From NCBI RefSeq assembly GCF_014127285.1, contig NZ_CP059901.1, positions 2,728,001-2,792,000 on the forward strand: DNA of 64,000 bases, in the 5' to 3' direction. Shown here in pieces: positions 41,902 to 45,140 of the stretch; the stretch's first letter is position 1, and each line of letters opens with the position of its first letter. The notes beneath the pieces were generated by a model. That model searched no databases and was not told the DNA's origin. It worked only from the letters and a program-made list of their open reading frames with translations. Made by a program: the position numbers and the translations under genes. This DNA comes from Mumia sp. ZJ1417 (GTDB lineage Bacteria; Actinomycetota; Actinomycetes; Propionibacteriales; Nocardioidaceae).

Positions 41902-42654
41902 GTGAGTAGCAAGGGCGCAGGCGGCGACGACACGAAGCCGCAGATGGTGATCACCGGCGAGCGGACGGTGCCCGGCATCTGGCACGAGAACTACTGGTTC
42001 CGCCGGCACGAGGTCGTGTACGAGGCGCTGCGCGACGTCGTCCGCGGTCGCGCGGCGCTCGAGGCCGGGTGCGGCGAGGGGTACGGGGCGGACCTGCTGA
42101 GCCACGTGGCGGGATCGCTCGTCGCGCTCGACTACGACGCGTACGCGACCGGCCACGTCCGCGCCGCGTACCCGCAGGTCCCGGTCGTCCGCGGCAACCT
42201 CGTCGCCCTCCCGTACGCTGACGCGTCGTTCGACGTCGTGGTCAGCCTGCAGACGATCGAGCACCTCTGGGACCAGGACGCGTTCGTCGCCGAGTGCGTC
42301 CGCGTGCTGCGGCCGGGCGGCACGCTGGTCGTCAGCACGCCCAACACGCTCACGTTCCCGCCGGGGAACATCTACCACCCCAAGGAGCTCGAGCCCGACG
42401 AGCTGCGTGACCTCGTCGCCGCCCACGCACGCGTCGAGTCGCTGGCCGGACTGCACCACGGTCCGCGGCTCGCGGCCTGGGAGGACACGAACGGCTCGCT
42501 CGTCGACGCGCAGATCGCGGGGCCGTACGACCAGTGGCCCGCGGCGGTCGCGCAGCTCGTACGGTCGGTGTCGACAGGCGACTTCGTCCTGCGGACGGGC
42601 GACGACGCCGACCTCGCCGCGTCGCTCGACCTCGTGGTCACCGCTCAGGTCTGA
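41902..42654 (+). CDS. Class I SAM-dependent methyltransferase
   Basis: 250 residues. Motif I is ALEAGCGEGYGADLLSH, the acidic residue follows in VALDYDAYATGHV, motif II/III region is LPYADASFDVVVSLQTIEHLWDQDAF, then CVRVLRPGGTLVVSTPN. N-terminal ITGERTVPGIWHENYWFRRHEVVYEAL resembles methyltransferases acting on glycans or mycothiol-like or mannosylglycerate substrates in actinobacteria, but the substrate is unassigned. GTG start supported by the -10 hexamer six bases ahead; no ribosome-binding site, consistent with leaderless translation. Confidence 0.85.
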   Translation: MSSKGAGGDDTKPQMVITGERTVPGIWHENYWFRRHEVVYEALRDVVRGRAALEAGCGEGYGADLLSHVAGSLVALDYDAYATGHVRAAYPQVPVVRGNLVALPYADASFDVVVSLQTIEHLWDQDAFVAECVRVLRPGGTLVVSTPNTLTFPPGNIYHPKELEPDELRDLVAAHARVESLAGLHHGPRLAAWEDTNGSLVDAQIAGPYDQWPAAVAQLVRSVSTGDFVLRTGDDADLAASLDLVVTAQV

Positions 42655-42672
42655 CTGCGCTGCTCTAACCGC

Positions 42673-42687
42673 GCTGCTCTGGGCAGA
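42673..42687 (+). promoter_or_regulatory. Candidate ClgR/PopR-type operator upstream of the clpP pair
   Basis: GCTGCTCTGGGCAGA, 56 bases before the clpP ATG, matches 13 of 15 positions of TCTGCTCTCGGCAGA at 44369-44383 upstream of the XRE regulator gene. Both contain an interrupted palindrome CTGC...GCAG. A second GCTGCTCT half-repeat lies just before it. Position about one -35 distance from a likely start suggests activation. Confidence 0.7.
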
Positions 42688-42743
42688 TCTGCCGCCGGCT
42701 GATCGGCTGGATCCTGGTGGACGCGCCGCGCCACGGTGGAGGC

Positions 42744-43373
42744 ATGGCACACGACACCGCACCCCACCTCTTCGACACGGTCAGTCGTCAACAGCTGCTC
42801 GGCCGGCGGATCCTCGTGCTCGACGGCGTCCTCGACGACGACAACGGCACCCTCCTCACCACCCAGCTCCTGTCCTTGGCCGCCGACGACCCCGGCGCCG
42901 ACATCGCGCTGTGGATCCACTCCCCCGGCGGCTCGGTGCCGTCGATGCTCGCGCTGCGTGATGTCGTACGGCTCATCCCCTGCGACGTGTCGACGCTCGC
43001 CCTCGGCCTCGCCTGCAGCGCCGGGCAGTTCCTGCTGTCGGCCGGGACGCCCGGCAAGCGGTACGCCCTCCCCCACGCACGGATCCTCATGCATCAGGGT
43101 TCGGCGGGGATCGGCGGCAGCGCGGTCGAGATCGAGGTCCAGGCCGACGACCTCCGCCACACCCGCGACACCGTGCTCGGCTTGATCGCCGCAGACACAG
43201 GCCAGCCGTTCGAGCGGATCTTCGAGGACTCGCTGCACGACCGCTGGTACACCGCCGTCGAGGCGCAGGCGTACGGGTTCGTCGACCACGTCGTCAGCGC
43301 GTTCGACGACGTGATGCCGAAGCGGCGCCGCGGCGTGGGGATCGGGGCGGCCCAGATGGGAGGCGTGCGATGA
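42744..43373 (+). CDS. ATP-dependent Clp protease proteolytic subunit (active-site complete, accessory copy)
   Basis: 209 residues, ClpP/crotonase fold. The catalytic Ser is in LGLACSAGQFLLSAG at about residue 92 and His in ARILMHQGSAG at about 117; the oxyanion/Gly-rich strand IHSPGGSVPSM is intact. The acidic third residue falls in FEDSLHDRWYTAVEAQAYGFVD. Sequence divergence from the main ClpP1P2 (C in place of A before the serine, altered axial region) and the absence of clpX or tig suggest an accessory, regulated pair such as ClpP3P4 of Streptomyces. ATG at 42744 follows GGTGGAGG. Overlaps the second clpP by four bases. Confidence 0.9.
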   Translation: MAHDTAPHLFDTVSRQQLLGRRILVLDGVLDDDNGTLLTTQLLSLAADDPGADIALWIHSPGGSVPSMLALRDVVRLIPCDVSTLALGLACSAGQFLLSAGTPGKRYALPHARILMHQGSAGIGGSAVEIEVQADDLRHTRDTVLGLIAADTGQPFERIFEDSLHDRWYTAVEAQAYGFVDHVVSAFDDVMPKRRRGVGIGAAQMGGVR

Positions 43374-43981
43374 GCACGTACACGATCCCGAACGTCATCG
43401 CGAACCATCCGCGTGGTGAGCGCGTCATGGACGTCTACTCGCACCTGCTCACCGAGCGCATCGTCTATCTCGGGACGGCCATCGACGCCGGCGTCGCCAA
43501 CGCGCTGATCGCCCAGCTGCTGCACCTCGAGGCGGACAACCCCGATGGCGAGATCAACCTCTACGTCAACTGCGAGGGCGGCGATGAGACAGCGATGCTC
43601 GCGATCTACGACACGATGCAGCACGTCCGCTCGCCCGTCGCGACGTTCTGTGTGGGTCAGGCGATCGCCGCCGGCGCGGTCCTCGTCGCCGGTGGCGAGC
43701 CGGGCCGTCGGGCGGCGCTGCCCCACGCGCGGTTCGTGCTGCACCAGCCCGCGGCGCGGGGTCAGGGGACGATCCCCGACCTGATCCTCCAGGCGGACGA
43801 GGTGGTGCGGGTGCGCAACGAGATGGAGGCGATCTTGTCGACCCATACCGGCCAGAGCGTCGACACGTTGCGGCACGACACGGACCGCGACCGGGTGTTC
43901 TCCGCTGCGGCGGCACGGGCGTACGGGCTCGTCGACGCGGTCATGGCGCCGCGAGCGGTGCTCGGCGGCGAGGTGCGGTGA
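43370..43981 (+). CDS. ClpP-family subunit lacking the catalytic serine (ClpR-like)
   Basis: 203 residues with a clear ClpP fold: LTERIVYLGTAIDAGVANALIAQLLHLEADNPDGEINLYVNCEGG, HARFVLHQPA (His125), and DTDRDRVFSAAAARAYGLVD, which carries the usual Asp. The nucleophile motif GQAASMGA is replaced by GQAIAAGA, so the serine position (codon GCC at 43667-43669, residue 100) is Ala; the oxyanion strand NSPGGS is also altered to NCEGGD. It should be proteolytically inactive and probably forms a mixed barrel with the upstream active subunit, shaping specificity. The ATGA overlap couples their synthesis, giving near 1:1 stoichiometry. Confidence 0.9.
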   Translation: MSTYTIPNVIANHPRGERVMDVYSHLLTERIVYLGTAIDAGVANALIAQLLHLEADNPDGEINLYVNCEGGDETAMLAIYDTMQHVRSPVATFCVGQAIAAGAVLVAGGEPGRRAALPHARFVLHQPAARGQGTIPDLILQADEVVRVRNEMEAILSTHTGQSVDTLRHDTDRDRVFSAAAARAYGLVDAVMAPRAVLGGEVR

Positions 43982-43991
43982 CGCCGCGGCG

Positions 43992-44327
43992 TCAGACGGC
44001 GAGGGCGAGCGGCCCGCGCGGAACCGACGTCGACGCCGTACGGCGCAGCTCGCCGCTGACGTGCTCGGTCAGGTCGAGCAGGGTCAGGTCGAGAGCGCCC
44101 GAGACCGCGGCGAGGATCTCGCTCGACGGCTCCTTGCGGCCGCGCTCGACCTCCGACAGGTACTGAGGGGAGATGCCGGCCACGGCGGCGGTGTCCGCGA
44201 GGCGCTGGCCACGGGCCAGGCGTGCCTCTCGCAGGCGCCGTCCGACGACCTCGCGCCACAGCGGCTCGGGCTCGGGCGGCGCGAGCGGCGCGGCGCGCCG
44301 AGGGCCGAGGCGTACGACGTCTCCCAT
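43992..44327 (-). CDS. XRE-family regulator, ClgR/PopR-like
   Basis: 111 residues. The helix-turn-helix at about residues 28-82 (VGRRLREARLARGQRLADTAAVAGISPQYLSEVERGRKEPSSEILAAVSGALDL) closely follows the ClgR/PopR pattern in which the recognition helix is followed by SEIERG-KE-SSE. These actinobacterial regulators activate clp operons and are themselves Clp substrates through a small hydrophobic C-terminus; this one ends PLALAV, compatible with such a degron. Convergent with the clpP pair, 10 bases apart. TAGCCT six bases before the ATG indicates a leaderless transcript, and an operator-like palindrome lies further upstream. Confidence 0.85.
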   Translation of the reverse strand: MGDVVRLGPRRAAPLAPPEPEPLWREVVGRRLREARLARGQRLADTAAVAGISPQYLSEVERGRKEPSSEILAAVSGALDLTLLDLTEHVSGELRRTASTSVPRGPLALAV

Positions 44328-44333
44328 GGCCCG

Positions 44334-44339
44334 AGGCTA
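44334..44339 (-). promoter_or_regulatory. Leaderless -10 element of the ClgR/PopR-like regulator
   Basis: On the reverse strand TAGCCT, then six bases, then ATG. Confidence 0.55.
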
Positions 44340-44368
44340 GGCCACGCCACCCGGCCGTCGCCAGGCAT

Positions 44369-44383
44369 TCTGCTCTCGGCAGA
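44369..44383 (-). promoter_or_regulatory. Candidate ClgR/PopR-type operator upstream of the regulator gene
   Basis: TCTGCTCTCGGCAGA, a near-perfect interrupted palindrome centred about 49 bases before the regulator ATG, at the -35/-45 zone of its leaderless promoter. It nearly equals the site before the clpP pair, implying autoregulation. Confidence 0.7.
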
Positions 44384-44456
44384 GCGGCTCCCGTCCGACG
44401 GTGCGTCCGTGGTCAGCGAGGCGACGTCAGGCGCTGCACGCCCGCGGCCGTACGCG

Positions 44457-45140
44457 TCAGCTGCCGCGGGCCTCGCGCTGCTCCTCGGCGACCTCGGCGG
44501 TGTAGCGCTGGATCTCCGCCCACTCCGCCAGGTCGTCGCGGCGGCTCTTGACGACGCGACCGGGCAGCCCGGCGACGATCGCGAAGTCCGGGTACTCGCC
44601 CCGCGCCACGGTGTGCGCGGCGAGCACGACGCCGCGCCCCGTCCGCGTGCCGCGCAGCACGCTCGCCTTCACGCCGATCCACGAGTCCGGCCCGATCCGC
44701 ACCGGAGAGACCACGAGTCCCTGGTCCTTGATCGGCTTCGCGAGGTCGAGCGTCACATGGTCGAAGTCGCAGATGTACGTCCAGTCCGAGATGATCGTCG
44801 CCGCCCCGATCTCGATGTCGAGGTGCGCGTTGATCGTGTTGTCGGACCCCATGACGACCTTGTCACCGAGGCGCAGCGTGCCGTTGTGGGCACGCAGCGC
44901 CGTACGGTCGCCGAGGTGGACGAACCTGCCGAGCACCACCCGCCCGTACGGGGGCTTGGTCTCGATCTCGACCCCGCGTCCGAGGAAGACGAACCCCTCG
45001 GTGATGACGTCGGGATGGCGTCGCTTGAACCGCCAGAACCGCCAGTAGCGCACCAGGTGGTAGCGCGACCACGCACGGTGACGCCGCACCCACCGCAGGG
45101 AGTCCACGGTGAGGAAGCGGGCCTGGCGGGGAGCGCTCAT
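44457..45140 (-). CDS. Left-handed beta-helix acyltransferase (hexapeptide-repeat family)
   Basis: 227 residues. After a basic, possibly membrane-associated N-terminus (RWVRRHRAWSRYHLVRYWRFWRFKRRHP) come isoleucine-patch hexapeptide turns (VVLGRFVHLGDRTAL, LRLGDKVVMGSDNTINAHLDIEIGAATIISDWTYI, VRIGPDSWIGVKASVLRGTRTGRGVVLAAHTVARGEYPDFAIVAGLPGRVV), the standard maltose/xenobiotic O-acetyltransferase layout. It likely acetylates or succinylates a sugar or lipid. Begins immediately after the methyltransferase stop (no gap), so the two genes may modify the same molecule. Confidence 0.85.
   Translation of the reverse strand: MSAPRQARFLTVDSLRWVRRHRAWSRYHLVRYWRFWRFKRRHPDVITEGFVFLGRGVEIETKPPYGRVVLGRFVHLGDRTALRAHNGTLRLGDKVVMGSDNTINAHLDIEIGAATIISDWTYICDFDHVTLDLAKPIKDQGLVVSPVRIGPDSWIGVKASVLRGTRTGRGVVLAAHTVARGEYPDFAIVAGLPGRVVKSRRDDLAEWAEIQRYTAEVAEEQREARGS

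Follow-up and report, generated by a model that had tools for sequence, protein, structure and literature searches.

Introduction

What switches on a second pair of clpP genes, and does the regulator encoded beside them also control itself? The question is raised by a locus of Mumia (Nocardioidaceae), whose 4.19-Mb genome, a single contig, contains the window, the whole stretch of 64,000 nucleotides analysed here. Two clpP genes converge there on a gene for an XRE regulator, and an initial annotation had proposed that one shared operator ties the pair to this regulator.

A comparable system is described in Streptomyces. In S. lividans, PopR activates clpP3P4 via TCTGCC-3N-GGCGAATCTGCC-3N-GGCAGA, and the PopR site named in the initial annotation agrees with this region as given in the article (PMC9775585). 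The site of ClgR reads GTTCGC-5N-GCG in the same account (PMC9775585). Streptomyces PopR is reported to be degraded by ClpP1P2, which leaves clpP3P4 silent until ClpP1P2 fails (PMC9765437, PMC12607617).

Results

A second clpP pair and its convergent regulator

The genes of the locus are:

42744..43373, + strand: clpP3-like gene (PF00574, E 2.7e-50)
43370..43981, + strand: clpP4-like gene (PF00574, E 4e-63), overlapping clpP3 by 4 bases
43992..44327, - strand: popR-like gene for an XRE regulator of 111 aa (HTH_3, E 3.1e-11)

The Mumia genome holds four clpP genes: the two in the window and, at 1.29 Mb, the housekeeping pair. The popR-like gene adjoins, in convergent orientation, a second pair distinct from clpP1P2. 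At their junction lies a perfect 16-bp palindrome, TGACGCCGCGGCGTCA (43979-43994), whose ends are the stop codons of the convergent clpP4 and popR genes.

The convergent arrangement recurs in all six Mumia genomes. With the six Mumia regulators as queries, the best 80 of 360 relatives became the named loci. Of these 80, 77 have ClpP-coding DNA downstream of the regulator and on the other strand; in the remaining 3, none was found inside the locus. Embleya, a member of the Streptomycetaceae, shares the regulator/clpP pair neighbourhood of the window (its match is the one used out of four in plasmid records). A family search gave a best match of at least 97 bits in 70 of 197 genomes, with a gap below 97 bits (a manual count), so the module is patchy. 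One contig titled Kitasatospora arboriphila (L149) shares 95.8% identity with Williamsia muralis (L130) across 6.2 kb, and may therefore be mislabelled or contaminated.

The regulator is not the genome's ClgR

Could the regulator simply be the ClgR of this genome? It matches the NCBIfam ClgR model at 68-69 bits, and the ClgR structures 3f51/3f52 and 5woq are its best matches among solved chains. The score nevertheless stays under the cut-off of 170: three Mumia genes stand out against the model (115, 90 and about 68 bits, all below the cut-off), and two of them score higher than the gene in the window. In the tree, a branch supported at 100/99 separates 83 popR-kind regulators from the Mumia ClgR and a third paralogue, the few columns and long end branches making finer placement unsure. 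The window regulator has neither the score nor the tree position of ClgR and is distinct from it by descent, in a tree that includes Embleya and lacks the S. lividans PopR. We rejected identity with ClgR, which has next to no probability left.

The C-terminus does read PLALAV, as first annotated. Its proposed role as a degron did not fare as well: the tail ends in LAV, unlike the Ala-Ala found in 71 of 83 regulators (4 of 87, outside the motif, were left out), the signal reported for Streptomyces Clp substrates (PMC9775585). In the tail count, as in the tree and serine counts, Mumia xiangluensis and M. quercus are present twice and Williamsia near-copies are kept. The other five Mumia tails are ARAI, AAVV, AGVA, RAA and ALAA, which makes two Ala-Ala ends in six rows; the tmRNA tag of the Mumia genome ends in ALAA. 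Work on E. coli tags suggests that AAV-type ends act as weaker but functional signals. We do not file the window regulator as a proven Clp substrate, and degradation through its LAV tail is a putative property.

One of the two ClpP subunits lacks its catalytic serine

The ClpP3-like protein carries the triad Ser92, His117 and Asp166, and Ser, His and Asp are present in all 80 aligned rows. The triad is incomplete in the product of the second gene: in an alignment that includes ClpP1 and ClpP2 of this genome, the ClpP4-like protein has Ala100 where the catalytic serine is expected. Alanine or glycine occupies this position in 74 of 79 aligned rows, and serine in the other 5 (four Nocardioides and one Marmoricola). 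The backup core would probably pair a catalytic ClpP3-like ring with a non-catalytic ClpP4-like one. Nothing else in the module is as surprising as such a half-inactive core.

Cyanobacteria and plastids have mixed Clp cores in which one subunit, ClpR, is non-catalytic. The likeness is that one ClpP-like protein is missing its catalytic serine; the difference is that in Mumia its gene shares an operon with that of an active ClpP, next to popR. A literature search returned no mention of serine loss of the ClpP4 type, which the original Streptomyces papers may nonetheless describe.

Operator boxes in the window

Upstream of both transcription units we find boxes of the PopR type, each followed by a probable -10 element:

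42673..42687, + strand: PopR-type box, distal in the clpP tandem, GCTGCTCTGGGCAGA, starting 71 bases before ATG 42744
42688..42702, + strand: PopR-type box, proximal in the clpP tandem, TCTGCCGCCGGCTGA, starting 56 bases before ATG 42744
42732..42737, + strand: probable -10 element CACGGT of clpP3, 6 bases before the ATG
44369..44383, - strand: the one PopR-type box upstream of popR, TCTGCCGAGAGCAGA (TCTGCTCTCGGCAGA on the + strand), starting 56 bases before ATG 44327
44334..44339, - strand: probable popR -10 element, TAGCCT, 6 bases before the ATG, the transcript being probably leaderless

The two 15-bp sites of the initial annotation, 42673-42687 and 44369-44383, are real and agree at 13 of 15 positions. 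As a description of the clpP operator, the box at 42673-42687 stands, but the abutting and better-fitting one at 42688-42702 had been overlooked: measured against the consensus TCTGCCNNNGGCAGA, the proximal box has one mismatch and the distal box two. Tandem TCTGCC-3N-GGC boxes are present upstream of clpP3 at 42673-42702; together they make up a tandem operator of 30 bp, and the popR promoter has one box. All three distances to the ATG suit an activator, as had been suggested for the two sites first noted.

The -10 element of clpP3 is probably weak, because its first position is not T. A consensus scan of 42600-44500 found neither a sigma-70 promoter with a -35 element nor a terminator. In the window, an SD-like GGTGGAGG stands before the clpP3 ATG, so that a short clpP3 leader is possible.

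The promoter layout recurs in relatives

After near-copies (at least 80% identity) and non-ATG starts were dropped, the promoter set contained 77 of 86 regulators and 70 of 78 clpP genes. Boxes that match in 10 or more of their 12 letters number 64 at positions -57 to -55 of the 77 regulator promoters; in the 70 clpP promoters there are 69 at -57 to -55 and 63 at -72 to -70. Shuffled controls give about 0.07 (regulator) and 0.06 (clpP) matches per position. Both tandem box cores are at their expected places in 68 of 70 clpP promoters, and the proximal core in 69. The GC-N5-GC core is absent from 11 of 77 regulator promoters, some of which probably have a misassigned start.

The -10 letters recur as well: A at -11 together with T at -7 is seen in 63 of 77 regulator promoters and 58 of 70 clpP promoters, over an AnnnT background with a mean of about 1% and a highest single position of 8% (regulator) and 4% (clpP). 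T at -12 is present in 36 of 77 regulator promoters versus none of the 70 clpP promoters, as expected if clpP3 depends more on its activator; lacking this T, the clpP promoter looks weaker and more activator-dependent. The -10-like hexamer 6 nt from the ATG, combined with the recurrent boxes, suggests leaderless, activated transcripts. If transcripts are leaderless, the proximal box would be centred near -49 in both promoters.

This geometry bears on whether PopR might instead repress both promoters. Many short XRE proteins are repressors, which speaks for such a role. The proximal boxes, however, reach as far as -42 and so stay upstream of the -35 region, and clpP has a degenerate -10 element; PopR and ClgR are, moreover, reported as activators. 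We rejected repression on site geometry and consider it very improbable.

Self-activation or a cascade

Is popR itself a target of PopR? The half-sites of the two promoter classes were counted by their letters, independently of the ClgR comparison set discussed below. The 280 half-sites of clpP promoters comprise 85 TCTGC, 68 TCCGC, 116 others and 11 with the GC core missing (the core is kept in 269), and no TTCGC. The 132 half-sites of regulator promoters comprise 49 TCTGC, 48 TCCGC, 21 TTCGC and 14 others. The idea of one operator for both promoters holds in part: a shared site class links the pair to its regulator, but across the phylum TTCGC makes up 21 of 132 half-sites at regulators against 0 of 280 at clpP.

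In the window, the popR box has two half-sites of the CTGC type, as at clpP3, and all boxes are CTGC-type or variants thereof, with no half-site of the GTTCGC type. The window, most Mumia and many Microbacterium have a regulator box of the PopR type; in some Nocardioides and in other genera, it is of the ClgR type. With 11 of 77 regulator promoters coreless and 18 of 77 carrying a ClgR-type TTCGC half-site, self-activation is not universal.

These 18 promoters also feed another explanation, a cascade in which ClgR, or the third ClgR-like paralogue at 351 kb, drives popR, and PopR acts on clpP3P4 only. TTCGC half-sites occur in ClgR sites and are missing from clpP promoters, an outer GTT is frequent at regulator boxes, and two Nocardioides loci (L096, L123) show full CGTTCGC-N5-GCGAACG palindromes. 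Furthermore, a GCGAAC half is among the two best ClgR-site matches in the clpP1P2 promoters of 21 of 30 other genomes, a manual count of matches picked for that very likeness. The ClgR comparison set itself, 23 sites out of 31 clpP1P2 promoters, was picked for a GCGAA half and is biased to the consensus. Against the cascade, both half-sites of the window popR box are CTGC, the same as at clpP3; among the other five Mumia promoters, four show a TCTGC half and no TTCGC, the fifth (L080, M. xiangluensis) being mixed. We judge the cascade unlikely, and self-activation of popR in Mumia likely.

The third ClgR-like paralogue (G000:C1:350939-351259, L031; also L027, L028, L029, L030 and L032) ends in VAMAA or VAIAA. 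A mixed TCYGC-N5-GCGAAC box lies upstream of it in 6 of 6 Mumia genomes, with TAGCGT six bases before its GTG. In the housekeeping clpP1 region (L009:1371-1440) there is a ClgR-like site, GTGCGCCCGTAGCGAAA, as well as TAGGGT a short way upstream of a GTG start; housekeeping clpP1 may also be leaderless.

Genome-wide search and an epimerase-like gene

With up to one mismatch, TCTGCCNNNGGCAGA occurs at 10 distinct places in the 4.19-Mb genome, two of them at the clpP3 and popR promoters. Allowing up to two mismatches gives 155 forward matches, as against 503 for the reversed control pattern, so the two-mismatch pattern is mostly noise; a degenerate box with zero mismatches occurs at 8 places, the control at 26. 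The initial annotation had set further hits at clp-related promoters only against hundreds of unrelated ones: the site is found at 10 places and not hundreds, but most of these are unrelated to clp genes.

Pooled, the strong boxes occupy 15 distinct places (10 and 8, with 3 common to both searches). The popR/clpP geometry together with the -10 letters is found at three of them, clpP3, popR and a place at 594 kb, and was not seen at the other 12. Of these 12, the box at 2375304 has an ATG at -55, but the frame is antisense to a transporter-like gene and without -10 letters; the one at 1967344 stands 67 bases upstream of an alpha/beta-hydrolase-like gene.

The sole perfect consensus site of the genome, at 594178, is 55 bases before a gene for an NAD-dependent epimerase-like protein (PF01370):

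L001:453-1460: epimerase-like gene
L001:1501-1515: perfect PopR box (gene and box together, genome 593130-594192)

This box is also 39 bases before a phosphoglycerate mutase gene; its geometry fits the divergent epimerase-like gene. In all six Mumia genomes the epimerase-like promoter has a box at -55/-56, A at -11 and T at -7 (the weakest box, in L174, keeps 10 of 12 letters), the six promoters being orthologous and not six independent tests. Outside Mumia, relatives were found in 11 of 30 genomes at E 1e-40; of 15 loci, 5 had a readable start, and one of these has a similar box at -56. The layout of this promoter is not clearly kept beyond Mumia. A Clp_N domain protein (PF02861, E 8.9e-21; L001:1-447) directly adjoins the epimerase-like gene.

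Discussion

We read the window as a PopR-clpP3P4 backup-protease module as in Streptomyces, with a probability of roughly 0.78. On the sequence side, the basis is the genes, the boxes, their recurrent spacing, conservation, the clade and the serine loss; from these we infer for Mumia PopR binding and activation, a leaderless start, self-activation, PopR degradation and the ring composition. The module would be a further case of a known system, whose operator and geometry have strong comparative support.

With S. lividans PopR/clpP3 clpP4 it shares a second clpP pair, a regulator paralogous to ClgR and a tandem operator of 2 x 15 bp; it differs in that the Mumia regulator ends in LAV, not Ala-Ala, and has a box at its own promoter. 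A literature search for PopR autoregulation matched only text on RheA, and the original PopR papers may describe it. The ClgR regulon (clpP1P2, clpC, lon) resembles the module in protein family, GC-N5-GC spacing, activation and, in Streptomyces, degradation by Clp; its half-site is GTTCGC as opposed to TCTGC, and its regulator belongs to another tree group and has other targets.

In the mechanism that we propose, PopR, a small ClgR-like activator, would bind TCTGC-N5-GCAGA boxes as a dimer. At the two tandem boxes upstream of clpP3P4, 15 bp apart, it would bring RNA polymerase to a promoter that is weak and leaderless; at the one box the same distance upstream of popR, it would activate its own leaderless promoter. 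As long as ClpP1P2 works, proteolysis would keep PopR low. When ClpP1P2 is failing or overloaded, PopR would rise and activate both popR and the backup pair.

The feedback first imagined has the protease destroying the protein that activates it. In Streptomyces, by contrast, PopR is removed by the housekeeping pair, ClpP1P2 (PMC9765437, PMC12607617). Given the fit of the window to that system, the loop is corrected accordingly, and the housekeeping protease would be the main expected destroyer of the backup's activator. A 2002 paper reportedly found ClpP3P4 also able to degrade PopR.

More tentative, and in our view somewhat doubtful as a whole, is the wider picture that joins a phylum-wide, self-sustaining PopR switch and a backup with one inactive ring to a popR wiring swapped between PopR and ClgR and an epimerase regulon in Mumia. 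If it is true, loss of housekeeping proteolysis would flip the cell into a self-sustaining state.

In Streptomyces hawaiiensis, a ClpP2 serine mutant is reported to keep full activity together with ClpP1 (PMC9765437). The serine loss of the ClpP4 type would be a natural counterpart of that mutant, and bears on how a backup core may replace the core hit by Clp-targeting antibiotics. Altogether, a system studied in Streptomyces is now placed in many families of actinobacteria, among which a single promoter layout recurs; the PopR operator and the putative self-activation loop thereby become directly testable outside Streptomyces.
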